In this document: one piece after another, positions 20,590-41,318 of the stretch
Numbering within the stretch: the first letter of the stretch is position 1
How the letters are laid out: every line of letters starts with the position of its first letter
Source of the DNA: Anaerolineaceae bacterium
Lineage (GTDB): Bacteria; Chloroflexota; Anaerolineae; Aggregatilineales; Phototrophicaceae
Direction of reading: 5' to 3'
DNA length: 64,000 nt
NCBI GenBank assembly: GCA_002699585.1
Contig: PABP01000036.1
Location: 312,333-376,332, forward strand
The notes under the pieces: model-generated
What the model saw: only the letters and a program-made list of their open reading frames with translations
Databases searched by the model: none
What the model was told of the DNA's origin: nothing
Made by a program: the position numbers and the translations under genes

Positions 20590-20751
20590 TTATACAGTCT
20601 GGCGCTGTTCTTTTTGTTGTTCAGCCTGGGCATGCAGTTTACGCTGCCAGCGATCAATGATGACGCCGAGAATGACCAGCAACAGCAGCGGAACGCCGAT
20701 ACGAACGATGAACATCACTGCGATTTCAAAGACAAAGTTGAGGTCTGACAT
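20590..20751 (-). CDS. Small single-pass membrane protein, 53 residues
   Basis: Not recognised. The reading frame begins at ATG 20751, preceded by AGGAG at good spacing, and encodes MSDLNFVFEIAV, then a hydrophobic segment from about 12 to 32 rich in Leu, Val and Ile, then a basic and Gln-rich tail (DRWQRKLHAQAEQQKEQ). The strand choice rests on the SD, the clean membrane profile and the terminator placed just beyond the stop. It is divergent from the histidine kinase gene, across a 224-bp gap that contains a weak C5/G5 hairpin (about 20862-20883). A role with the neighbouring membrane complex is only a guess. Confidence 0.65.
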   Translation of the reverse strand: MSDLNFVFEIAVMFIVRIGVPLLLLVILGVIIDRWQRKLHAQAEQQKEQRQTV

Positions 20752-20975: not shown

Positions 20976-22631
20976 ATGACCCTCGATTGGACAACCCTCA
21001 TTATTCCGGTCTACTTCTTGTATGGTCTGGCGTTTTATTCGATGGGCCTCGCGCTACTGATCGAATCAGGCCGCGCCTCAGAACTGGGCTTCGCGCGTTC
21101 GATGCGCTTGCTGGCCGGGTTCGCCCTCCTACATGGCACGCATGAATGGATCGAATTCATCGAACGCATCCTGCTCCTGATGGATGGTTCGCTGCTGCCT
21201 ATGTGGGTGATGTGGTTCAAGGTGGCTTTGTTGGCATCGTCGTTTTTGGCGCTGGTGGCTTTCGGTGAGCATTTACGCTCGCTGGAAGATGAAGACAACC
21301 CGCGCATCAACCTGGTGGTGATGGCTGTGCTTTGGTATGCAGCATCCTGTATCGTCATTCAGGCCGCCAACCAGCTCGACGAACAAAGTTGGGCGACTGT
21401 GTGTGATGTCCTGGCGCGCTACGTCCTGGGGATCCCTGCCAGCATCCTGGCGGCGATGGTACTGTTCCGGCAGCGTAGAACTATCAAAGACCCGGAAATG
21501 CAGCGATTCGCGGTTTACTTCACCTTTGCCGCGATATGCATGTTGATCTACGGTGTGGTCGGCCAGTTGTTCGTTAAGCAAGCCATCATCTTCCCCGCCA
21601 GGATTATCAACGAAGAACTCTTCCTGTGGATTTTTGGTTTCCCGGTGCAGGTCCTACGTGCGCTGATGGCTATCGTGCTGTCGTTTGCCATGATTAGCGC
21701 GCTGCGCGTGTTGGAAATTGAAAACGAACAGCGCATGAAAGGCATCGAAAAAGCACGGCGCGACATTGAGTATCGCAGCCGAGAAGAACTCTCGCGCTTG
21801 AATGCCAGCCTACAGGCCAGCGAAGCCGAAGCGCGCCAGCTATTGGCCGAACTCAAGAAGCGTGACACGATCCGCACGGAATTTTTACAGCAGGTGACGG
21901 CAGCGCAGGAATCCGAACGCAAGCGTATCGCCCGTGAACTGCACGATGGCACTGGCCAGATGCTGACCGGGTTGGCCCTGGGACTGCGCGGCCTCAGTCG
22001 GCAAGTACACGACAATCCCGACATGGTGGTCAAGCGACTATCTGATCTGGAGATCATGGCGACGACGACCATCGGCGAACTACGCACCCTGATCCAGGAT
22101 TTGCGCCCACCGCAGCTTGATGACATGGGCCTGATCCCGGCTATTCGCTCCATGCTGGACCGACTCAAACAGGCCGATTCCCCAACCTATAATCTCAAAA
22201 TTAGTGGCGACCCGTACCCGCTGCCCTCTGATGTAGAAACCATTCTCTTCCGCATCATTCAGGAGGGGCTGACCAATGCGACCAAACACGCCCATGCGGA
22301 CGCTGTCAATGTGTGCCTGGATTACGAAGATGGCGTTGGCTTGTGTGTCTGTGATGATGGCATCGGCTGCGACCCGGAGACGGTGCTGGCGACGTCGCCC
22401 ACGCGCTCCTCGTGGGGGCTGATGGGCATCGAAGAACGCGCAAACCTGATTAACGCTGTCTGGTCTTTTGAGTCCAAACCGAGCCAGGGTACCAAAATCA
22501 AAGTACAGATCCCACGCCCCGTTGCCGAACCAACCGAGACAGAACCCGCGGACACGCCATCGTCAAACACCCTGCCATCGGTAGAACCCGCGGTCGCCGA
22601 ACCCAAGGAGGTACAACCTCATGACGATTAA
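20976..22631 (+). CDS. Membrane histidine kinase, NarX/LiaS-like (HisKA_3)
   Basis: A 551-residue sensor kinase. Residues 1-240 contain about seven hydrophobic segments, then a coiled coil (about 245-300), then the HisKA_3 dimerisation helix with H323 in KRIARELHDGTGQ, and an HATPase domain with NATKHAHA, DDGIGCDP and GLMGIEERA. The last 40 residues are Pro/Glu rich. It overlaps the response regulator gene by 11 bp. The membrane-embedded sensor suggests it reads a signal within or near the membrane, possibly quinone or redox state, given the redox genes that follow; that is inference. Confidence 0.9.
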   Translation: MTLDWTTLIIPVYFLYGLAFYSMGLALLIESGRASELGFARSMRLLAGFALLHGTHEWIEFIERILLLMDGSLLPMWVMWFKVALLASSFLALVAFGEHLRSLEDEDNPRINLVVMAVLWYAASCIVIQAANQLDEQSWATVCDVLARYVLGIPASILAAMVLFRQRRTIKDPEMQRFAVYFTFAAICMLIYGVVGQLFVKQAIIFPARIINEELFLWIFGFPVQVLRALMAIVLSFAMISALRVLEIENEQRMKGIEKARRDIEYRSREELSRLNASLQASEAEARQLLAELKKRDTIRTEFLQQVTAAQESERKRIARELHDGTGQMLTGLALGLRGLSRQVHDNPDMVVKRLSDLEIMATTTIGELRTLIQDLRPPQLDDMGLIPAIRSMLDRLKQADSPTYNLKISGDPYPLPSDVETILFRIIQEGLTNATKHAHADAVNVCLDYEDGVGLCVCDDGIGCDPETVLATSPTRSSWGLMGIEERANLINAVWSFESKPSQGTKIKVQIPRPVAEPTETEPADTPSSNTLPSVEPAVAEPKEVQPHDD

Positions 22632-23277
22632 CGTCCTCATTGTTGATGACCATGCCGTAGTCCGGGCAGGCATCCGCATGTTGATTGAAAGCGACCCCGA
22701 CCTGACCATCGTCGGTGAGTGTGAAAATGGCCAGGAAGCAGTTGACCAGGTAGAGAGTATCAAGCCTGATGTGGTGCTAATGGACGTCACCATGCCCGTG
22801 ATGGATGGTGTCGAAGCGACGCGCGTCATCAAGTCGGCTGATGGTTCGCCTTCTGTATTGGCGCTGACCATCCACGAAGGGCCGGATTATTTCTTCCAGA
22901 TGTTGCAGGCGGGGGCATCGGGTTATGTGCCCAAGCGGGCCGCCCCGGATGACTTGCTGCGCGCGATCCATGTGGTGGCGGAAGGCAACGTCTTTTTGGA
23001 GCCGCAGGTCGCTAAAGAACTGGTGTCGGATTACCTGGTGCGGGTACAGCAAGGCGGCGAACGCGAGAGCTACGACGGCTTGACCGACCGCGAACAGCAA
23101 GTTCTGACGCTGATCGCTGAAGACGAAACCAACCAGGGCATCGCCAATGACCTGGGAATTTCCGTCAAGACGGTGGAGCGCCACCGCGAAAACATCATGT
23201 CCAAGCTCAATTTGCATTCGCGCATTGAGCTTGTGAAGTATGCCATCCGTAAAGGGCTGATCTCGCTAGAAGATTGA
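22621..23277 (+). CDS. NarL/FixJ family response regulator
   Basis: A 218-residue regulator. The receiver domain (1-120) has the acidic pair D9-D10, phospho-acceptor D55 in VLMDVTMP and the conserved Lys in GYVPKRA. The C-terminal LuxR-type helix-turn-helix (about 150-210) reads LTDREQQVLTLIAEDETNQG and SVKTVERHRENIMSKL. It is the partner of the overlapping kinase and ends 106 bp before the multiheme cytochrome operon, its likely target. Confidence 0.92.
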   Translation: MTINVLIVDDHAVVRAGIRMLIESDPDLTIVGECENGQEAVDQVESIKPDVVLMDVTMPVMDGVEATRVIKSADGSPSVLALTIHEGPDYFFQMLQAGASGYVPKRAAPDDLLRAIHVVAEGNVFLEPQVAKELVSDYLVRVQQGGERESYDGLTDREQQVLTLIAEDETNQGIANDLGISVKTVERHRENIMSKLNLHSRIELVKYAIRKGLISLED

Positions 23278-23383
23278 CCCTGAAACAACAGTAAGTGACA
23301 TAACAGATGTGTTTAACAACAGCAGTTTCTTTACCTAAAGAGTCAAGTTCTTTCATTCACTACGTTTTGGCAAGGAGGCTTGT

Positions 23384-25585
23384 ATGGCACAACCAAAACG
23401 ATATTTAGCAATTGGCTTTGCCCTGATGGGGTTCTTCTGCATGGCGCTTGGCGCAATGTTATTAACCCCAATCAGCGTGGAAGCTCAGGACGACGCAGCT
23501 ACAACGTCCAGTACCACGTCCAACGGAGAATATGCCAGCATCCGGGATTGTAACGACTGTCACCGGCGCATCGGCAATAACTTCGAGACGACAGCGCATG
23601 CTATGACCATGTTCGAGGCTGAGGACATCCCGGAAGCTGTGGTCGCAGATTTCTCCGTAGGCGAAGACCTGCGCTTGTATGCGTTCCCGGAAGAAGATGA
23701 AGAACGGCCCTTCACGCTAGAGGATGTGGCCTTCGTCGTCGGTGCCGGGCAGATCGCGCAGCGCTTCGTGGTTGACCTCGGCGATGACGATTACCATGTG
23801 CTACCTGTCGAATGGAACGTCGAAGCGGGCGCATGGCAGAGCTTCGAGCTGCCCAATGGCGATAGCTGGACCGATAACTGTGCATCGTGCCACGCAACGG
23901 GTTACGATGCCAGCACCCACGCGTTTTCCGAGGAATCGGTGACCTGTGAAGCCTGTCACGGCCCTGGCCTGACGCATGTCGAGGCCGCTGATGACGCGGG
24001 TAGCAGCATCAACGATGAAGAAGAAGCCGAAATCAAAGCGGCCATCAATGCCTTCCCGGACCCATCAGCATGCAGTAGCTGCCACTCCCAGCCGGAAACG
24101 GATGCGACCTGGGTCGATCCGGTCCATGCCAGCATGGGCGCTTATGACGCCTGGGTTGATTCCCCACATGCACAATTGGTCGACATGGCCGATGCAGACA
24201 TGGATGCAGACGAAGCATCTGATGAGGAATCTGAAGGGGAATCTGATGCTGATGTGGCCCATGCATCACCGTATGCGATGGACTGCGCAGGTTGCCATGC
24301 CATGCATCCTGAAAGTGACGAAGAAGTGCAGCCGCATCTGTTGTCGATTGATATGAGCGAAGGCCTTTGCTTGGCTTGCCATGATAGCAACGCTGGCGAA
24401 CTGATGGCCGGAACTTCTATCGTCGATAACGTGGTTGGTTTGCCCTCGGCACACCATGAAGAAGGCCTGGAATGCGAATCGTGTCATAACCCGCATTCGG
24501 TACAGTCGATCCCGGCGGATATGTCCCAGCCAGCGACCTGTAACGATTGCCATACGGACCTCACGCAGACGGCTATACGCGGTTTTGCTCATGGGGCACA
24601 GGAGCGCGTTTCGACTCGGTTGGCCAACATCGAAACACACATCGAAGACGATACGCCGGAATGGGTATCAACCATCGTTACGACCATACACGAAGATGGC
24701 AGCGGCGGTATCCATAACTTCGCTTATGTCTCGCGTTTGCTAAATGCCGCAGAAACCAACCTGGGCATTCTGGCAGCAGCACCAGCAGAAATCGTGCCAG
24801 TTGTCGAGGCCATCAATCCAGATGAATGCACTGAATGCCATGCAGATGTGCATGATGTCTGGCAGGATTCACTACATGCCAATGCCTCGCTGGGTGAGAA
24901 CTTTCAGGAAGCCTATACCGAGAGCGGTCGGCCCTCCTACTGCATGAGCTGTCACGCATCCGGCTATGACCCTAATACGCAGCGTTACGTCTTTGAAGGC
25001 GTGGTCTGTAGTACCTGCCACGTCCTGGACGAGGGCGCGGAACATCCGCCTGGGCCGATGCCGATTGCCAGCTCATCAGAAGCGTGTGGGCGCTGCCACA
25101 GCGGCGAACACTCGCCAGAATACAACGAATGGCTCGTCAGCGATCACAGCAACTTCAATGTCGACTGTGTGGACTGCCACGTCGCGCACGATAACAGCCT
25201 GCGCCTGGGTGGCATCAATGAAACCTGTGCTGACTGCCACGAAAATGCAATGAACGACGAAATCCACATGGGCGAAGACATGAACTGTGTCGACTGCCAC
25301 ATGACGCGCGTTGACGAAGAAGGCGAGGTCATCCACCATACCATGTTCTTCGATCCGAAGACCTGTGCCGAGTGCCACGGGGATATTCATACCCTGCAAC
25401 TCGACCCATCCCGCAGTTTAGACGATGCGGGCCAGCAACTGGTTTCGGCGCTGGAAGAAGAAGTCACCACCCTGGAAGAAAAAGCTGAGACGAACCTGCA
25501 ATCCGGTATCGTCGGTGGTGCAGTCGGTGCGATGGTGCTGGTGATCTTCCTGTTCATCGCAGTGAGATTAGGGAGAATGAGATGA
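23384..25585 (+). CDS. 16-heme cytochrome c, two octaheme units, membrane-anchored
   Basis: A 733-residue extracytoplasmic electron carrier. It has an N-terminal signal or anchor segment (about 6-34) and a C-terminal membrane helix (about 704-728). I count sixteen CxxCH heme sites, the first at C56-H60 and the last at 661-665. They fall into two sets of eight (56-390 and 482-665) with matching order: CASCHATGYD/CMSCHASGYD, CEACHG/CSTCHV, CSSCH/CGRCH, CAGCH/CVDCH, CLACH/CADCH, CESCH/CVDCH, CNDCH/CAECH. An acidic Asp/Glu-rich insert lies near 267-290 in unit 1. Its stop overlaps the ferredoxin gene start by 4 bp. The heme count and partners recall HmcA of the Desulfovibrio Hmc complex, but homology beyond heme motifs is not shown. 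Confidence 0.9.
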   Translation: MAQPKRYLAIGFALMGFFCMALGAMLLTPISVEAQDDAATTSSTTSNGEYASIRDCNDCHRRIGNNFETTAHAMTMFEAEDIPEAVVADFSVGEDLRLYAFPEEDEERPFTLEDVAFVVGAGQIAQRFVVDLGDDDYHVLPVEWNVEAGAWQSFELPNGDSWTDNCASCHATGYDASTHAFSEESVTCEACHGPGLTHVEAADDAGSSINDEEEAEIKAAINAFPDPSACSSCHSQPETDATWVDPVHASMGAYDAWVDSPHAQLVDMADADMDADEASDEESEGESDADVAHASPYAMDCAGCHAMHPESDEEVQPHLLSIDMSEGLCLACHDSNAGELMAGTSIVDNVVGLPSAHHEEGLECESCHNPHSVQSIPADMSQPATCNDCHTDLTQTAIRGFAHGAQERVSTRLANIETHIEDDTPEWVSTIVTTIHEDGSGGIHNFAYVSRLLNAAETNLGILAAAPAEIVPVVEAINPDECTECHADVHDVWQDSLHANASLGENFQEAYTESGRPSYCMSCHASGYDPNTQRYVFEGVVCSTCHVLDEGAEHPPGPMPIASSSEACGRCHSGEHSPEYNEWLVSDHSNFNVDCVDCHVAHDNSLRLGGINETCADCHENAMNDEIHMGEDMNCVDCHMTRVDEEGEVIHHTMFFDPKTCAECHGDIHTLQLDPSRSLDDAGQQLVSALEEEVTTLEEKAETNLQSGIVGGAVGAMVLVIFLFIAVRLGRMR

Positions 25586-26418
25586 GTACCGACCAGGCGA
25601 CAGACACGTCCCAAGAAACCCAAACCCCCAACACCCGGCCCATGACGCGGCGTGAATTCCTGCTGCTGATCGGCGGATTGGGCGTGGGCGTCGTGGCTGC
25701 GGATCAAATCTGGCGCTGGTTCATGGCGATTAACGATCCGCATGCCCAGGCTGAACATGGTCCCGTCGAGGGACCCTACTGGGCGATGGCGATTGACTTG
25801 CAGACGTGCATCGGTTGTGAACGCTGTGTGCATGCCTGCCAAGCCACCAACGACACTGCCGAAGGCCATCTATGGAACGTGCTGCTGCAAGATGACGAAA
25901 CCTTCAGCAAGCCGGTGTTTATCACGCGGCCCTGCATGCACTGTGAACATGCGCCCTGTGTGGATGTCTGCCCGGTGCAGGCGACCTATCACCGTGAAGA
26001 CGGCCTGGTCGCGATGGACTACGACCGCTGCATCGGCTGCCGCTACTGCATGGTCGCTTGCCCTTACGGCGTGCGCGTCTTTAACTGGGAAGACAATGCG
26101 GGCGAGAATCCCTCGGCACCCACCTGGGGCACGCCAGAAATTCCGCGCAGGCCGCGCGGTGTCGTCGAAAAATGTACATTCTGTGCCCATCGGCTGGATG
26201 CAGCAGAAGAACGCGGCCTGACGCCTGGTAAAGACCGGGCAGCGACCCCGGCCTGCTGTAACATCTGCCCGACGGAAGCGCGTGTGTTCGGCGACCTCAA
26301 AGACCCTGATAGCCCGGTTTCTAAGGCGTTACAAGGTCGGCAGGCAGTGGTGCTGCGTAGTGAACTGGGCACCAACCCGCGCGTGTTTTACCTGCTGCCG
26401 ACAGAAGATGAAGTATAG
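25582..26418 (+). CDS. Four-cluster ferredoxin-like subunit (HmcB/DmsB type)
   Basis: A 278-residue iron-sulfur protein that passes electrons between the NrfD subunit and the cytochrome. The N-terminus MTRREFLLLIGG (about 21-32) is a twin-arginine export signal that may stay as an anchor, which places the clusters outside the cytoplasmic membrane. Cysteine groups for four 4Fe-4S clusters are visible: CIGCERCVHAC, CMHCEHAPCVDVC, CIGCRYCMVAC, and KCTFC with ACCNIC. It starts within the cytochrome stop (4-bp overlap) and is followed 12 bp later by the NrfD gene. Confidence 0.9.
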   Translation: MSTDQATDTSQETQTPNTRPMTRREFLLLIGGLGVGVVAADQIWRWFMAINDPHAQAEHGPVEGPYWAMAIDLQTCIGCERCVHACQATNDTAEGHLWNVLLQDDETFSKPVFITRPCMHCEHAPCVDVCPVQATYHREDGLVAMDYDRCIGCRYCMVACPYGVRVFNWEDNAGENPSAPTWGTPEIPRRPRGVVEKCTFCAHRLDAAEERGLTPGKDRAATPACCNICPTEARVFGDLKDPDSPVSKALQGRQAVVLRSELGTNPRVFYLLPTEDEV

Positions 26419-26430
26419 GAGGCGATCATC

Positions 26431-27639
26431 ATGTTGAGACGTGGTAACTTGTTCTGGATATGGATCGCCGCTCTGGTGGTCATGATCGCCATCGGGCTGT
26501 ATACGGCCTTCACGATCTTCAGCCAGGGGTTGGCTGTCACCAATATGAGCGATGCCGTCCCTTGGGGCGTCTGGATCGTGCTCGATCTGTCGTGCATTGG
26601 CCTGGGCGCAGGGGCCTTCACTATCTCGGCGATTACTTACATCCTGGGGCGCAAGCAGTATCAATCGCTGGCGCGGGTGGCTGTATTCGTCGGCCTGCTA
26701 GGTTACAGCGGCGCGTTGATGGCCCTCATCATGGACATTGGCCGCCCGGACCGCTTCTGGCATGGTTGGGTGTACTGGAATAACCACTCCATGCTGTGGG
26801 AAGTGACCATGTGCATCACGCTGTACTTCAGTGTGCTGCTGCTGGAAGTCTTCCCGCTGGTGGTGGAGCATCCCTTCTTCAACCGTTGGGGATGGCTGCA
26901 AAACCTGGCCCATCGCATCCACCACTTCGCGCCGATTCTGGCAATCATCGGCCTGTGTTTATCGTTGCTGCATCAATCCAGCCTGGGCGCGACCTACGGC
27001 GTGGTCATTGGTCGCTCGGCGTTATGGCGCTCGACCATGCCGCTGCTGTTCATCGTGAGTGCGGCGGCGGTCGGGATGGCCTTCACGGTACACCTGACGC
27101 TGATCGTGCAGTGGTTCAAACAGAAAGAGATCGTCCCGACAAGCGTGCTGTTTGAAATCGGCCAGATCGCGGGCGGTGTGCTGCTGTTCTACCTGTATAT
27201 GCGCTTCTGGGATACGACAGCGGGCACGTATGGTTATGTACCGGGCCGCAGCGAAGCGGAAAATGTGCTGATCAATGGCGAGTTCGCGGTCAACTTCTGG
27301 GCCTGGGAGATGATCCTGGGCGGGGTAGTCGCGGCGGCGTTACTGATCCGAGCGCGTATGACGCAGAGCGTATCGGCGCTGCTGGTTGGCAGCGGTCTGG
27401 CGATGGCCGGACTGGTCGTCAACCGCTGGCACACGACGCTGCTGGCCTTCACCCAACCGCTGAGTGAAAATCCGCCAGTGACCTTACCGGCTGCCGCGCC
27501 TTATACGCCCGCGCTGACGGAATGGCTAACCGTACTGGGTGTGATTTCTATCCTGGCGTTGCTCTTCAGCCTGGGGATGCGCTTCTTACCTGCATACAAC
27601 CCGCAGTCTGCAATACCGGAAGTCGAAGCCCACGCTTAG
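26431..27639 (+). CDS. NrfD/PsrC-type integral membrane quinone-interacting subunit
   Basis: A 402-residue polytopic protein with about ten hydrophobic segments. It matches the NrfD family (HybB/HmcC-like) with SDAVPWGVWIVLDLSCIGLGAGAF at 46-69 and MDIGRPDRFWHGWVYWNNHSMLWEV near 100-124. Proteins of this family exchange electrons with the quinone pool and hand them to a ferredoxin-like partner, here the gene just upstream. No molybdopterin, nitrite or other catalytic subunit follows, so the three genes appear to form an electron conduit. A hairpin at 27696-27722 ends the unit. Confidence 0.9.
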   Translation: MLRRGNLFWIWIAALVVMIAIGLYTAFTIFSQGLAVTNMSDAVPWGVWIVLDLSCIGLGAGAFTISAITYILGRKQYQSLARVAVFVGLLGYSGALMALIMDIGRPDRFWHGWVYWNNHSMLWEVTMCITLYFSVLLLEVFPLVVEHPFFNRWGWLQNLAHRIHHFAPILAIIGLCLSLLHQSSLGATYGVVIGRSALWRSTMPLLFIVSAAAVGMAFTVHLTLIVQWFKQKEIVPTSVLFEIGQIAGGVLLFYLYMRFWDTTAGTYGYVPGRSEAENVLINGEFAVNFWAWEMILGGVVAAALLIRARMTQSVSALLVGSGLAMAGLVVNRWHTTLLAFTQPLSENPPVTLPAAAPYTPALTEWLTVLGVISILALLFSLGMRFLPAYNPQSAIPEVEAHA

Positions 27640-36535: not shown

Positions 36536-37957
36536 CTAATCGCGCTGGAGGACATCCAGCACAGTGCCATCCTGATCTTTCAATTCGATATGCAGCGGCA
36601 TCTGGCCGATGGCATGGGTCGAGCAGCTCAGGCAGGGGTCGAAGGTACGGATGACCGCTTCCACACGGTTGAGCATCCCCTCTTCGATCTTCTTGCCGTC
36701 GATGAAGTGCTTGGCTGTCTGGAACACGCCGCGATCCATCGCCATGTTGTTATGGCCAGTGGCGATAATCAGATTAGCCCAGGTAATGCCGCCGTATTCA
36801 TCGACCTTGTAGTGATGTAAAAGCGTGCCGCGCGGTGCTTCTGAGACGCCGACACCTTCTGAGGCGTTGACATTGGCCAGCGCTTGTACATGCTCGCTCA
36901 AGATGTCCGGCTCGTTGAGCAGTTCTTCAATGCGCTCGATGCCGTACAGAATTTCAATCAGCCGGGTGTAGTGGAAGTAGAACGATGATTGGCGTTCTTC
37001 CCAAGCCAGCGATTGGTATTCTTTGAGGGCTTCGTCAGCCAGCGGTGTCCCGGCATGGGTTGCCATGTTCAGACGGGCCAGCGGACCCACGCGGTAGATA
37101 CCCTGCGGATAACCCAGCGGCTTATAGAATGGCGACTTCAAGAACGAGTGATCTTCGACTGCTTCGCCAATGTATTCCTGGTAGTGGCGCGGGTCGATGT
37201 CCCTGACGTGGTTGCCATCCGCGTCGACGATGCGCAGAATGCCATCATAATGTTCCAGTGACCCATCGGCATTGATCATGCCCATGTACATGGTCGGGAA
37301 GTTGGCGAAGACTTTGATTTCTTCGCGGTACTGGTCGATCATCGGGATGAACCACTTGAGGGCATCCAGCGTGATCTGCTTCACTTCGGGAATATCGGCC
37401 AGGATGGCGTCACGAGCTTCCGGCGTTAGCGGATCACTGACACCACCGGCGACTACCCAATTGGGGTGGATGCGCTTGCCACTCAGGCGTTCGATCACCT
37501 GTTGGCCGAACTGACGCAGGCGCACGCCATTGCGGGCAAGCTGCGGGTCAGCTTCGTACATACCGAAGATATTGCGCTTGCCGGGGTCGGCATCCATACC
37601 CAGCATGAGGTCCGGCGCGGACAGATAGAAGACACTCAGCGCGTGCGATTGGACCATCTGGGCGATGTTCAAGATTTTGCGCAAGGTGATGGCTGTTTCC
37701 GGGATACGGACGGCCAGCAGTTCATCGCAGGCTTTGGCCGAGGCCACCAGATGGCTGACCGGGCAAATGCCACAGATACGGGCCATCAGGGCGGGCATCT
37801 CGCGGAAGGGGCGACCTTCTGAGAATTTTTCAAAGCCGCGCAATTGCGTCACATGGAAGTGAGCATTGGTGACTTCGCCTGCGTCATTGATTTCAATGGT
37901 GATTTTGCCATGCCCCTCAATGCGCGTGACGGGGTCAATGGTGATGGTGTTGGTCAT
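36536..37957 (-). CDS. hoxH: NAD-linked NiFe hydrogenase large subunit
   Basis: Carries the NiFe active site. The 473-residue protein has both cysteine motifs: RICGICPVSH with C62 and C65, and DPCLSCSTH with C442, C445 and H448. Twenty-five residues follow H448, the extension expected to be removed by the downstream protease. The opening TITIDPVTRIEGHGKI is standard. With hoxEFUY it forms a group 3 (bidirectional, NAD-coupled) soluble hydrogenase. Group 3b or 3c enzymes lack the NuoE/F/U-like subunits, so 3d is favoured. Confidence 0.93.
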   Translation of the reverse strand: MTNTITIDPVTRIEGHGKITIEINDAGEVTNAHFHVTQLRGFEKFSEGRPFREMPALMARICGICPVSHLVASAKACDELLAVRIPETAITLRKILNIAQMVQSHALSVFYLSAPDLMLGMDADPGKRNIFGMYEADPQLARNGVRLRQFGQQVIERLSGKRIHPNWVVAGGVSDPLTPEARDAILADIPEVKQITLDALKWFIPMIDQYREEIKVFANFPTMYMGMINADGSLEHYDGILRIVDADGNHVRDIDPRHYQEYIGEAVEDHSFLKSPFYKPLGYPQGIYRVGPLARLNMATHAGTPLADEALKEYQSLAWEERQSSFYFHYTRLIEILYGIERIEELLNEPDILSEHVQALANVNASEGVGVSEAPRGTLLHHYKVDEYGGITWANLIIATGHNNMAMDRGVFQTAKHFIDGKKIEEGMLNRVEAVIRTFDPCLSCSTHAIGQMPLHIELKDQDGTVLDVLQRD

Positions 37958-37966
37958 GCGTCTCTC

Positions 37967-38494
37967 CTAACCGAAACGGGGCGAAATATTGGGCATTTCG
38001 CCATTGAGCAGGGCGACTAGGGCATCGCGGATGACTGGGCCGGGAGGCGGGCAACCGGGCAGGTAAATGTCGACCGGGACCACCGTATGAACAGGTTGAA
38101 TCTGCGGCAGTAGCTCCGGTACGATCAGGTTGGGCGCATGCTGGTTGACATCGGCATTTTCGATGTAAGCGCGTTCCTCAATGGCGGCAACCGGGTAGCG
38201 GTTGCGCATGGCCGGGACGTTGCCCGTAATGGCACAATCGCCCAGGGACAGCAGCAACTTGGTGTGCTTGCGTATCTTGATGATCTTGGCACGGTCATCG
38301 ACACTGCTGACGCCGCCCTCGACCAGGGTCAGATCGACCATATCGGGGAAAACTTTGTTATCGACCAATGGGCTGTAAACCAGATCGATTCTGTCGGCAA
38401 TGTCTAACAGCACACCGTCGATGTCCAAAAAGGACATGTGGCATCCCGAACAGCCATCGAGCCATACGGTTGCGACTTTGACTTTATTCGGCAT
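37967..38494 (-). CDS. hoxY: NiFe hydrogenase small subunit
   Basis: A 175-residue electron-transfer subunit that holds the proximal 4Fe-4S cluster: C15 and C18 in WLDGCSGCHMSFLD, then SLGDCAITGN and LPGCPPPG. The short length without a second ferredoxin domain and without a Tat signal is typical of HoxY of soluble group 3 enzymes. It overlaps hoxU by 11 bp and precedes hoxH by 9 bp. Confidence 0.92.
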   Translation of the reverse strand: MPNKVKVATVWLDGCSGCHMSFLDIDGVLLDIADRIDLVYSPLVDNKVFPDMVDLTLVEGGVSSVDDRAKIIKIRKHTKLLLSLGDCAITGNVPAMRNRYPVAAIEERAYIENADVNQHAPNLIVPELLPQIQPVHTVVPVDIYLPGCPPPGPVIRDALVALLNGEMPNISPRFG

Positions 38495-39197
38495 TGTCCA
38501 CCTCGCGCATTGTCTTCAGGTATGGAAGGAAGTGATCGTCTTTGGTCATCTCGCCCACCGCACGCGACTTCTTGAAGAGTGCGCCCGTCGGGCAGACCTG
38601 AATGCATTTACCGCATTCGGTACACGTTTCTGAGAGTGCCCAGGGCGTATTCAGATCGGTGACGACCTTGGCATTGATGCCGCGCCCGGAGACATCCCAG
38701 GTATGCGCACCTTCAATTTCACCACAGACGCGCACGCAGCGGGTACACAGCACGCAGCGGTTGTGGTCGATGGCATAGCGATAATGCGAAACGTCGATTT
38801 CCTTCTTGGGGAACATATAGTTCAGGCGAGTATGATCAACGCCCAACTTTTCCGCGAGCCATTGCAGTTCACAGTGACCATTGGCCACACACACCGAGCA
38901 AACATGGTTGCCCTCAACGAAGAGCATTTCAAGGATCATACGGCGGTATTTTTGCAGGCGCTCGCTGTTGGTCGTGACTTCCATGCCTTCTTCGACCTTG
39001 GTGACGCAGGCCGGCAGCAGCTTATTCGAGCCTTTGACCTCGACCATGCACAGGCGACAAGCCCCAACGGGCTTGAGACCTTCGATGTTACATAGCGTCG
39101 GCAGGAAGACGTTATTTTCACGGGCGATATCGAGGACGGTTTCGTCTTCACGACCACTGACGTCCTGGCCATCGATTTTGAATGTTTTGACTGGCAT
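38484..39197 (-). CDS. hoxU: Hydrogenase diaphorase subunit HoxU
   Basis: A 237-residue iron-sulfur subunit related to the N-terminus of NuoG. An N-terminal 2Fe-2S ferredoxin (CNIEGLKPVGACRLC region, about 37-50), a His-Cys cluster region (GNHVCSVCVANGHCEL, about 97-112) and two 4Fe-4S groups (CVLCTRCVRVC and CTECGKCIQVC) are visible. It links the flavin subunit to the hydrogenase dimer. It lies between hoxF (14-bp gap) and hoxY (overlap). Confidence 0.92.
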   Translation of the reverse strand: MPVKTFKIDGQDVSGREDETVLDIARENNVFLPTLCNIEGLKPVGACRLCMVEVKGSNKLLPACVTKVEEGMEVTTNSERLQKYRRMILEMLFVEGNHVCSVCVANGHCELQWLAEKLGVDHTRLNYMFPKKEIDVSHYRYAIDHNRCVLCTRCVRVCGEIEGAHTWDVSGRGINAKVVTDLNTPWALSETCTECGKCIQVCPTGALFKKSRAVGEMTKDDHFLPYLKTMREVDNAE

Positions 39198-39211
39198 AAC
39201 GGTTACTCTCC

Positions 39212-40825
39212 TCAGGCCGGTTCGTGCGCGGGCGTGATGCGCTCTAAGTATTCCTCACGGAAGTAGCGCAGTGTGCTCATGACCGGGTTGGGCGCGGATT
39301 GTCCGAGGCCGCACAAGCTGGTCTGGCTGACCATCTCGCACAGCTCTTCCAACAGCGTCAGATCGGCTTCGGTGGCTTCTTTATTGACGAAGCGCGTCAA
39401 CAGCTCGTACATCTGCGCTGTTCCAACGCGGCAGGGAATACACTTACCGCAGGACTCGTCCATGCAAAATTCCATGAAGTAGCGGGCCACGCTAACCATC
39501 GACGAGGTATCGTCCATGACCACCATACCGCCCGACCCCATGATCGACCCCAGGGCACGCAGCGATTCGTAATCGACCGGGGTATCCAGATGTTCTTCTG
39601 GAATACAGCCACCAGACGGACCACCGGTCTGGACCGCTTTGAACGCGTGGCCATCCGGGATGCCGCCACCAATCTCTTCGATAATTTCTCGCAGGGAAAT
39701 GCCCATTGGCACTTCGATCAGGCCGACACGGTTGACCTTGCCTGATAGAGCGAAGACTTTGGTCCCGGCGCTTTTTTCCGTACCCATGCTGGAGAACCAC
39801 TCGCTGCCGTTCAGGATGATGGGCGCGATGTTGGCGAAAGTTTCTACGTTGTTGATGAGGGTTGAGTGGCCCCAAAGGCCGCTCATGGCCGGGTACGGCG
39901 GACGTGGGCGCGGGTTACCGCGCTGGCCTTCAATCGAGGCGATCAGGGCCGTTTCTTCACCACAGACAAACGCACCGGCACCTAAACGCAACTGGACGCT
40001 GAAGCTGAAGGGCGAATCAAAAATATTCTTGCCCAGACAGCCCATCTTTTCCGCTTGGCGGATGGCTTTCTTAAGGCGTTGGATACCCAGGCCGTATTCT
40101 GCCCGGATGTAGATATAGCCTTCACTGGCACCAACGGCGTAAGCCGCAATCGCCATGCCCTCTAAAATGCGATGTGGGTCGCTTTCCATGATGCTGCGAT
40201 CCATAAAGGCACCGGGGTCGCCTTCATCGCCGTTGCAGACGATATACTTGAGGCCCTCATCCATTTTGGCGACGGTGGCCCATTTAAGGCCCGTTGGGTA
40301 GCCCGCACCACCGCGACCACGTAGGCCGCTCTGGGTGATTTCGCGGACGACATCCGTTGGGTACATTTCTTCAGTCGTGACTTTATAGAGTGCTCTGTAA
40401 GCACCATGCGCCATTGCCGATTCGATGTCTTCCGGGTCGAGCTTGCCAGCATTAGCCAGCACCACCCGCTGCTGTTGTTGGAAAAAAGCATTGTCTTGTT
40501 TGAGTTCAATGCGTTCGACGGGGCCCTGGCCTAAATGATCTACGATTTCGGCACTATCTTGCGGTTTTACTTTTTGATATAGAGCATCTTCTGGTTGAAT
40601 GGAGAGGATCGGACCGGAGCCACATAAGCCCAGGCAACCCACACCATTCACCCGACACTTGTGTTTGAGGTCGCGTGCTTTTACTTCGGCTTCTAAGCTT
40701 TCTTTGACGGCAGCACTGCCTGAGGCAACACACCCGGATGAGGTACAGACGTTAATGTGATATTCGACGGCAGCATCAGCTTCACGACGTTTCTGTCCGA
40801 TTTGCTCGAATTCTTCACGATCCAT
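39212..40825 (-). CDS. hoxF: Hydrogenase diaphorase flavin subunit HoxF
   Basis: NAD(H)-binding FMN subunit related to NuoF with an extra N-terminal thioredoxin-like 2Fe-2S domain (CTSSGCVASG and CLGLCGSGP). GRGGAGYPTGLKW, the NADH/FMN region AEYGLGIQRLKKAI and the 4Fe-4S ligands in ESCGKCIPCR plus TSLCGLG are present. Start ATG 40825 gives MDREEFEQIG and an 11-bp overlap with hoxE; the frame also runs upstream to ATG 40855, inside hoxE. About 537 residues. It is the entry point of electrons from NADH, or the exit during H2 oxidation. Confidence 0.9.
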   Translation of the reverse strand: MDREEFEQIGQKRREADAAVEYHINVCTSSGCVASGSAAVKESLEAEVKARDLKHKCRVNGVGCLGLCGSGPILSIQPEDALYQKVKPQDSAEIVDHLGQGPVERIELKQDNAFFQQQQRVVLANAGKLDPEDIESAMAHGAYRALYKVTTEEMYPTDVVREITQSGLRGRGGAGYPTGLKWATVAKMDEGLKYIVCNGDEGDPGAFMDRSIMESDPHRILEGMAIAAYAVGASEGYIYIRAEYGLGIQRLKKAIRQAEKMGCLGKNIFDSPFSFSVQLRLGAGAFVCGEETALIASIEGQRGNPRPRPPYPAMSGLWGHSTLINNVETFANIAPIILNGSEWFSSMGTEKSAGTKVFALSGKVNRVGLIEVPMGISLREIIEEIGGGIPDGHAFKAVQTGGPSGGCIPEEHLDTPVDYESLRALGSIMGSGGMVVMDDTSSMVSVARYFMEFCMDESCGKCIPCRVGTAQMYELLTRFVNKEATEADLTLLEELCEMVSQTSLCGLGQSAPNPVMSTLRYFREEYLERITPAHEPA

Positions 40826-41318
40826 CGCTGACTCTTTCCCCGACGATTTTGACAATGTTTTCCGGTGTCAGCCCACTGACGATCTCTCCATCGACCACAG
40901 CGACGGGTGCGAGGCCACAGGCCCCCACACAGTGCGCACTCAATAAAGCAAACTCGCCATCGGGCGTAATCTCACCTTCTTCGATGTCATGGGCTTCGCT
41001 GAGTGCCTTCACCATCTGGTCGCTGCCTTTGATGTAACAGGCTGTTCCCAGGCAAACGACGCAATTATGTTTGGCCGGTGGTTTAAGGCTAAAAAAGTGG
41101 TAGAACGTTGCGACACCATAGGCTTTGCTCATGGGGACATTCAGACGACGGGCGACGAAACTTAGCGATTCATCATCCAAAAAACCAAACGACTCCTGTA
41201 CTGCGTGCAAAGTCTCGATCAAAGCCTGGGGCTTATAACCGTAACGCCGCATGGTTGCATTGACGATACGCCACCGCTTGTCATCAGACGGAGGCGCGAC
41301 TTCGATTGGCCTCACCAT
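40815..41318 (-). CDS. hoxE: Hydrogenase diaphorase subunit HoxE
   Basis: A 167-residue NuoE-like 2Fe-2S subunit. Cluster ligands are CLGTACYIKGS and CVGACGLAPV, with YGVATFYHFFSL ahead of them. It is the first gene of the operon, with SD GGAG six bases from ATG 41318. HoxE subunits occur in the five-subunit bidirectional hydrogenases of cyanobacteria and others. Two CRP/FNR-like palindromes lie 36-102 bp upstream. Confidence 0.92.
   Translation of the reverse strand: MVRPIEVAPPSDDKRWRIVNATMRRYGYKPQALIETLHAVQESFGFLDDESLSFVARRLNVPMSKAYGVATFYHFFSLKPPAKHNCVVCLGTACYIKGSDQMVKALSEAHDIEEGEITPDGEFALLSAHCVGACGLAPVAVVDGEIVSGLTPENIVKIVGERVSDGS

Follow-up and report, generated by a model that had tools for sequence, protein, structure and literature searches.

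Introduction

The quinol oxidase families surveyed for extracellular electron transfer, namely CymA, CbcL and ImcH, are all multiheme cytochromes (PMC6295460). Three-gene conduits composed of a cytochrome c, a ferredoxin and a membrane quinone subunit, without a molybdenum (Mo) enzyme, are likewise a known kind, as described for Cbc4 (CbcSTU) of Geobacter, and SirCD of Shewanella has been presented as a ferredoxin-NrfD quinol dehydrogenase (PMC11434368). In Desulfovibrio vulgaris, the Qrc complex (QrcABCD) reduces quinone electrogenically; quinone-site and proton-path residues have been proposed for its membrane subunit QrcD, and electrogenic activity was argued to be likely for HybB and HmcC as well (PMC6303296). 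On the cell surface of Thermincola potens, the nine-heme cytochrome OcwA (PDB 6I5B) serves as a terminal reductase. A coordination site is open at its hemes 2 and 5, each of which is accompanied by a distal His-His pair, and the authors considered that octaheme cytochromes possibly arose from OcwA-like nonahemes via loss of heme 2 (HAO) or heme 5 (MccA) (PMC6703420). Finally, multiheme-rich Anaerolineales are reported to carry large multiheme cytochromes with varying heme numbers, and that account identified no porin-cytochrome complexes in them (PMC7399161).

Here, we describe a gene cluster within a 64,000-nt stretch of the genome of an Anaerolineaceae bacterium (contig PABP01000036.1, positions 312,333 to 376,332; hereafter "the window"). 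The cluster comprises five open reading frames (ORFs) on one strand, which encode a sensor histidine kinase (HK), a response regulator (RR), a multiheme c-type cytochrome, a ferredoxin and an NrfD-family protein. A previous annotation made without database searches (the sequence-only reading) had likened it to the Hmc complex of Desulfovibrio. We found that the cytochrome is a fusion of two modules that stand as separate proteins in paralogous clusters, that the first of these is homologous to OcwA and that the NrfD-family protein retains most of the proposed QrcD residues. It thus appears more likely than not that the cluster encodes a regulated membrane complex, which would link the menaquinone pool by electron exchange to a donor or acceptor on the cell surface.

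Results

The cluster and its relatives

Both the ORF map and Pfam agree with the sequence-only reading as to five same-strand genes, their order and their domain types, with matches to HisKA_3/HATPase_c, Response_reg/GerE, multiheme cytochrome families, 4Fe-4S domains and NrfD (Table 1). The proposed gene overlaps of 4-12 bp hold for two junctions, HK/RR (11 bp) and cytochrome/ferredoxin (4 bp), whereas the other two have gaps, of 106 bp between regulator and cytochrome and of 12 bp between ferredoxin and NrfD. The host genome (6.70 Mb in 42 contigs, 96% complete), whose relatives are Anaerolineae and other chloroflexotes, also encodes CcmF for heme attachment.

Relatives were collected by a pattern-based scan of a species-genome collection with the NrfD alignment. 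The scan confirmed 141 relatives, and the records of the best 80, which were retained, all carry chloroflexote names, including Promineifilum, which we take to be a chloroflexote. Together with the window, 19 of these loci (59-71% identity) make up one group (class I; "orthologous loci" below). Since homologues of the cytochrome, the ferredoxin and NrfD stand in the same order at all 19 of them (tblastn/ORF mapping), the cluster is more than a chance arrangement. The full five-gene order, which the sequence-only reading had proposed to seek in Chloroflexi, is present without interruption at nine of these loci, and the other ten keep the order cytochrome-ferredoxin-NrfD. Class II clusters consist of two cytochromes, a ferredoxin and NrfD, and class III clusters are those with a single 8-heme cytochrome type; the automatic labels misplace at least L089 and L127, where a divergent 12-heme gene was counted, four rows are without a class, and the map of L104 contains no ferredoxin ORF. 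When 60 near relatives were searched with the cytochrome, nine had the fused form (G047 in two frames), and the one congener searched in the same way gave no match; the system is therefore patchy. A ferredoxin search across the class at E≤1e-110, a threshold that may miss diverged orthologues, returned two of 199 genomes, including the host.

A fused cytochrome with an OcwA-like module

The window cytochrome contains exactly 16 CxxCH motifs, as had been counted before, yet in this it is the exception: all 19 orthologues have 17, nine in an N-terminal module (N-module) and eight in a C-terminal module (C-module). Of the membrane anchors proposed for both ends, the C-terminal one stands as a tail-anchor candidate, found in the window (residues about 704-729) and in 19 of 19 orthologues, whereas the N-terminal stretch is more likely a cleaved signal peptide. 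AxA-like cleavage sites are present in many orthologous cytochromes, as judged by eye and with no signal-peptide program.

The fusion is evident from profile comparisons. The N-module corresponds over 526 columns to the first of the two class II cytochromes, where this module is thus also a gene of its own beside FeS-NrfD, and the C-module aligns over 258 of 271 columns with the lone 8-heme cytochrome of class III (a set of 37 rows, at least one of which, L132, is a class II second cytochrome). The second class II cytochrome aligns over 307 columns with that of class III, and is thus of the C kind too; it aligns over 177 columns only with the class I C-module, and the remaining profile pairs align over 87-225 columns. 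Heme motifs inflate the profile scores of multiheme proteins, which makes collinear length the better evidence.

When a class I profile of 18 sequences (the window and 17 of the 19 orthologues) was compared with PDB chains, the top match was OcwA (6i5b; E 1.7e-88, 300 bits), collinear over chain residues 11-496 of 526. Next came 6qvm (E 9.8e-45) and, more weakly, cytochrome c554 (1.6e-12), octaheme and NrfA nitrite reductases and, lower, MccA (1.1e-6). The window cytochrome by itself matched 6i5b at E 8.5e-19, and two stand-alone N-type cytochromes likewise had this chain as their best PDB match (7.7e-36 and 2.2e-28). The C-module profile (16 rows, one a full-length orthologue) found 6i5b best as well, in four short stretches (4.2e-21), followed by 6r2q chain A (7e-18), which we take to be MtrA and which bears another name in the match table. 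OcwA itself is a surface protein in its own right; in class I, the corresponding module shares its polypeptide with an anchored 8-heme module, and FeS-NrfD genes stand alongside.

This homology bears on the earlier claim that the cluster has no catalytic subunit. As regards adjacent genes, the claim stands, although further subunits may be encoded elsewhere: neither the two neighbours of the cluster nor ten large ORFs that flank the unit at seven orthologous loci (helicase, SelA, SelB, glycosidase, 10-heme cytochrome, malic enzyme, sigma factor, primase, CcmF and a beta-propeller protein) include a further catalytic subunit, and specifically no molybdopterin subunit was among the ten. As a statement on the cluster itself it is doubtful, given that the N-terminal half of the cytochrome is homologous to a terminal reductase. 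This OcwA-like half is likely the terminal reductase of the cluster.

Sixteen heme motifs are common to the window and all 19 orthologues. The remaining one, heme 5, occurs in every orthologue and is missing from the window only; the nine hemes of OcwA are therefore matched by the N-modules of all orthologues, but not by that of the window with its eight. The distal loop of heme 5, recognised by the 99-residue spacing between the two OcwA His-His pairs, reads HH in ten orthologues, HY in eight and HF in one, and is gone in the window. The loss of both halves of the heme-5 site while the frame stays open argues against an assembly error. As the window lost one heme of 17, its agreement with the 16 hemes of HmcA is a coincidence.

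A QrcD-type membrane subunit and a four-cluster ferredoxin

The NrfD-family protein scored best against QrcD among the NCBIfam families (268 bits), followed by HmcC, HybB (138 bits) and DsrP. At one gapless offset (18), it carries 12 of 14 published quinone-site and proton-path residues of QrcD, as compared to 0-3 matches at each of the other 21 offsets tried; a 15th residue, E413, could not be placed. The two mismatches are F63, replaced by Trp, and N100, replaced by Arg as in HybB. E. coli HybB and the host's own C18 protein have 11 of 14 each, and E. coli NrfD has three. Across the NrfD proteins compared (17 from class I loci, 19 from "class II" and 35 from "class III"), the pattern is kept apart from M139, which is mostly Val in the latter two groups, and a few varying positions. 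Qrc differs from the present cluster in that it includes the molybdopterin-like subunit QrcB, which was absent from the window cluster, its two neighbours and the ten flanking ORFs. In addition, QrcD is described as found only in deltaproteobacteria, and the QrcA-type cytochrome as hexa- or pentaheme (PMC6303296).

In a phylogenetic tree, the class I proteins formed one clade (100/100), most class II rows grouped together and class III rows were scattered. A 100/99 branch separated the Anaerolineae group, together with HybB and the HybB/HmcC-like C18 protein, from E. coli NrfD, a DsrP-annotated protein, haloarchaeal NrfD and the host's own C1 protein. The tree has long outgroup branches, and we rely only on the class I clade and this broad split; its references come from E. 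coli, Azospirillum, Flammeovirga and Halomicrobium, with no Desulfovibrio QrcD, HmcC or PsrC, and two class I loci whose NrfD was found by tblastn (L061 and L071) are outside both the tree and the residue counts. Within this scope, the position is near HybB and away from E. coli NrfD, and a placement inside ordinary nitrite or polysulfide reductases, which would have refuted the sequence-only reading, was not observed. An ordinary nitrite reductase membrane subunit was rejected on this ground, on the residue counts and on the NrfD model TIGR03148, to which the window proteins gave no match at E≤0.001 and one orthologue gave 26 of 348 bits. Searched by itself, the window NrfD found no PDB chain at E≤0.01, and the sole match of its family profile was the alternative complex III subunit 8k9e (E 0.00017).

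In the ferredoxin, 17 Cys fall into four groups, consistent with four clusters, and the protein begins with a Tat-like sequence (TRREFLLL), which bears out the Tat-type four-cluster protein described before. Its NCBIfam score for DsrO (215.2 bits) exceeds the curated cut-off of 200, with QrcC next, and three other member ferredoxins scored 203, 201 and 196.8 bits. This could mislead automatic annotators to "DsrO". Membership in DsrMKJOP was rejected, as the ferredoxin score is the sole one to pass: DsrP reached 49.9 of 350 bits, and the cluster contains no DsrMKJ genes (Pfam) or other further Dsr subunit. Among PDB chains, the alternative complex III chain 6f0k (4.7e-41) and the NrfC-named chain 2vpw (1.6e-40) lead the matches of the ferredoxin.

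Regulation and a small membrane protein

The linkage of the cluster to a two-component system of its own, as previously proposed, recurs at the nine loci with HK-RR directly upstream (L059, L060, L063-L068 and L075). At a tenth, L072, HK-RR lie upstream with a second cytochrome cluster in between, and no HK-RR homologue was found in the sequence around the remaining nine of 19. The kinase sensor domain matches no Pfam family at E≤0.001 and has the invariant residues H53, H56, E57, R148, Y149 and Q197 (12 sequences). Kinases of five class III loci share this domain, in two cases (L078 and L081) some 5 kb downstream of NrfD, and the kinases seen beside class II units do not match it. With the kinase model (mean pLDDT 79), Foldseek and VIA-align matches were almost all to the kinase core; a match of residues 3-261 to a G protein-coupled receptor (Z 13.6, rmsd 6.5) was not used, being within the range of the helical-bundle warning. 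We infer that this sensor may read the quinone or redox state.

In the gap between regulator and cytochrome genes, GTGACATA is the sole 8-mer common to the window, L059, L060 and L075 (0 of 20,000 shuffles share any), these three loci having been picked after GTGACATA was noticed. It is missing from the six other loci with HK-RR directly upstream, and GTGACAT occurs upstream of the cytochrome in three further loci.

Divergent from the operon lies a gene for a 53-aa single-TM (transmembrane) protein, a newly found part of the cluster that may be a small subunit or an assembly factor. Homologues (51-91 aa as called) lie divergently beside the unit in 11 of the 19 orthologous loci. In six of these, all with HK-RR directly upstream of the unit, they are found upstream of the kinase, and in the other five upstream of the cytochrome. 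None was found in L062, L066, L071, L073, L074 and L076, nor in L059 and L060, whose contigs end too early. The protein matched no Pfam family over cut-off, and a search of class II/III loci with a pattern derived from these homologues gave no match, which is a weak negative.

Neighbouring and paralogous genes

A NAD-linked [NiFe] hydrogenase (large and small, Nuo51-like and 2Fe-2S subunits), presumably of the HoxEFUYH type, is encoded at 36536-41318 on the minus strand of the window, about 9 kb from the cluster. In L047 (8768-13299), another [NiFe] hydrogenase (large, small, NAD-binding and ferredoxin subunits) directly follows the class I unit on the same strand. ORFs of like size follow the unit in L044-L046, which bear the same genus label, with Pfam run on L047 only.

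The host genome holds several paralogous loci, among them L039, a class III paralogue. L042 (C27; 3022-13046) contains HK-RR, an N-type 9-heme and a second 9-heme cytochrome, a b561/cbb3 fusion protein and a flavodoxin-like protein; here, a cytochrome b561 protein takes the place of FeS-NrfD beside the N-type cytochrome. As N-type cytochromes stand both beside FeS-NrfD and beside a b561 protein, the OcwA-like module is swapped between two quinone-side partners. L041 (C1; 5187-12900) encodes HK, RR, ferredoxin and NrfD, followed by a 1098-aa molybdopterin oxidoreductase, a similar regulatory pairing on an ordinary Mo enzyme. L040 (C18; 3576-12108) combines its HybB/HmcC-like NrfD with a Mo enzyme near PhsA, an ExtP-like cytochrome b and an 8-heme cytochrome with an MtrC-like domain. 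Besides, a 10-11-heme cytochrome is paired with a secreted or lipoprotein-like protein beside class III units (Table 1); this partner has one CxxCH and a shared C-terminal tail of the form S/N-x-G-x-G.

Table 1. Features of the cluster and related elements (positions refer to the window unless a locus is named)
Feature	Position	Strand	Basis
53-aa single-TM membrane protein, divergent from operon	20590..20751	-	homologues; signature F..R.G.P...L..LG..IDRW
Sensor histidine kinase (HisKA_3/HATPase_c)	20976..22631	+	ORF map, Pfam
Multi-helix kinase sensor domain, about seven helices	20976..21725	+	high-confidence helix prediction, no Pfam
NarL/LuxR-type response regulator	22621..23277	+	Pfam, NCBIfam
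GTGACATA, candidate regulatory site between regulator and cytochrome genes	23295..23302	+	shared 8-mer
16-heme c-type cytochrome (8+8); 17 (9+8) in 19/19 orthologues	23384..25585	+	CxxCH count, alignment
Probable Sec signal peptide of cytochrome	23384..23485	+	hydrophobic stretch then AxA-type site VEA|QDD (by eye)
N-module homologous to OcwA	23486..24778	+	class I profile and window cytochrome vs PDB 6i5b
Stretch between hemes 4 and 6, heme 5 lost, acidic linker instead	24086..24283	+	alignment
C-module: 8 hemes and C-terminal transmembrane anchor (about 25493-25567)	24794..25582	+	profile alignment, TM candidate
Tat-type four-cluster ferredoxin, DsrO/QrcC-like	25582..26418	+	cysteine pattern, NCBIfam
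NrfD-family quinone subunit, QrcD-like	26431..27639	+	NCBIfam, residue comparison, tree
10-11-heme cytochrome paired with ~100-140-aa secreted or lipoprotein-like protein	L039 12235-14109; also L079, L080, L096, L100, L106, L133, L138; near class I unit in L070		

Discussion

The present data suggest how electrons might travel through the encoded proteins. The NrfD-family protein would bind quinone near the outer membrane face and take up or release protons via a path to the cytoplasm. The Tat-exported ferredoxin would connect this quinone site with the tail-anchored 8-heme half of the cytochrome, from which electrons would pass to the OcwA-like half. The latter would exchange them with a partner outside, be it a mineral, a shuttle, another cell or a soluble oxidant of small size. 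That the quinone pool trades electrons with a partner beyond the membrane had already been proposed in the sequence-only reading, and the QrcD-type residues and the OcwA homology both support this notion. Retention of the QrcD residues, together with the electrogenic quinone reduction reported for Qrc, further suggests that the NrfD module may be coupled to the proton-motive force, in either direction. If the proton path worked as in QrcD, inward electron flow would conserve energy and outward flow would spend it.

Several points weigh against this picture. At heme 2, class I cytochromes do not conserve the distal His-His pair (the aligned positions hold Asn-Met or other residues), and heme 5 is lost in the window, so that no classical OcwA active site is assured; judged by alignment, the OcwA pattern of two open hemes with distal His-His pairs seems to be absent from the window. 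Hence, we claim no working OcwA-type site at heme 2. The predicted structure of the cytochrome is poor (mean pLDDT 56). The QrcD score of the NrfD subunit falls short of the equivalog cut-off of 570 bits, and the solved relatives of the ferredoxin appear mixed. QrcD-type proton chemistry would make outward flow costly and would fit uptake better than mineral respiration, and an N-module tethered to the cytoplasmic membrane may not reach beyond the cell wall. What the sequences show is gene content, homology, conserved residues, the module fusion and the loss of heme 5; complex formation, quinone type, location, direction, partner and coupling are our interpretation.

Other explanations were considered as well. 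The cluster could encode a reductase that feeds electrons from quinones to a small soluble substrate (nitrite, hydroxylamine or a sulfur oxyanion), with the N-module as the enzyme and, in the window, heme 2 as the sole candidate site, as in the MccA sulfite reductase. OcwA does reduce nitrite and hydroxylamine, and the derivation of MccA-like octahemes through loss of heme 5 was raised by its authors (PMC6703420); the window lacks exactly this heme and its distal loop, and c554, octaheme and NrfA nitrite reductases and MccA are among the weaker matches of the class I profile. We nonetheless consider this rather unlikely, as the heme-2 pair is unconserved, the N-modules of all 19 orthologues keep nine hemes, and OcwA is reported to show no sulfite reduction under the conditions tested and to turn over nitrite at 1 per minute (PMC6703420). 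Alternatively, electrons from Fe(II), a cathode, a partner cell or periplasmic cytochromes could be taken up to reduce menaquinone electrogenically. In favour of such a quinone reductase are the conserved proton path proposed for Qrc, along with the arguments for HybB and HmcC (PMC6303296), the cathodic current reported for the chloroflexote Ardenticatena, and the [NiFe] hydrogenases after the unit in L047 and within the window. Yet hydrogenases with NAD-binding or Nuo51-type partners look cytoplasmic and are no obvious donors to an outer-face cytochrome, and OcwA is described mainly as a reductase; we consider uptake, too, rather unlikely.

The comparison with Hmc fares worse. The likeness to HmcABC lies in the kinds of parts, i.e. 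cytochrome, ferredoxin and NrfD in one operon, and in the number 16; in addition, HmcC ranks second among the NCBIfam models matched by the NrfD protein. However, the window cytochrome did not match the HmcA model NF045713 at E≤0.001 (five NCBIfam families were matched by window proteins), and the HmcB and HmcC scores were far below their cut-offs (87.9 of 420 and 147.8 of 550 bits). No HmcA chain was among the 53 PDB rows at E≤10 for the class I cytochrome profile, and the orthologues have 17 hemes. Only the C-module profile gave a marginal match (E 0.0042, versus 4.2e-21 for OcwA) to 2e84, a high-molecular-weight cytochrome that we take to be HmcA. "Hmc-like" in the sense of descent is accordingly rejected, and a true Hmc complex, which would pass electrons in a periplasmic, hydrogen-linked manner through an HmcA-type cytochrome to the quinone pool, is largely refuted by the sequence already and seems highly improbable to us.

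Returning to the regulated exchange complex, a bolder version of it can be put forward tentatively, which goes well beyond what we would call probable. In this version, a terminal reductase and a wire in one polypeptide would sit on an electrogenic QrcD-type subunit and, together with the small membrane subunit and a quinone-reading kinase sensor, form a reversible extracellular electron module coupled to the proton-motive force, and the window copy would represent a natural nonaheme-to-octaheme step by loss of heme 5.

Conduits of this general make-up are known from Cbc4. The resemblance to Cbc4 and SirCD lies in the types of parts, and we noted no OcwA-type module in the account of these systems (PMC11434368). 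We found no earlier description of an OcwA-type reductase fused to such a conduit, of a QrcD-type subunit in it or of the heme-5 loss. Literature searches returned no paper that combined OcwA with Chloroflexi, nor one that joined NrfD, multiheme cytochrome, Chloroflexi and extracellular electron transfer, and OcwA was absent from the 12 of 1,218 papers listed by a wider search that included Chloroflexota, Anaerolineae and Ardenticatena, with other spellings and subscription papers outside their reach.

In summary, the cluster probably lets electrons leave or enter the cell at its surface. It is thereby a candidate for the mechanism used by those multiheme-rich Anaerolineales that had no identified porin-cytochrome complexes. 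Through its loss of heme 5, the window provides a natural experiment to tell which of the OcwA active sites matters. With a QrcD-type subunit, CymA, CbcL and ImcH would be joined by one that has a proposed proton path, which would make it testable whether extracellular electron transfer can itself conserve or spend proton-motive force.

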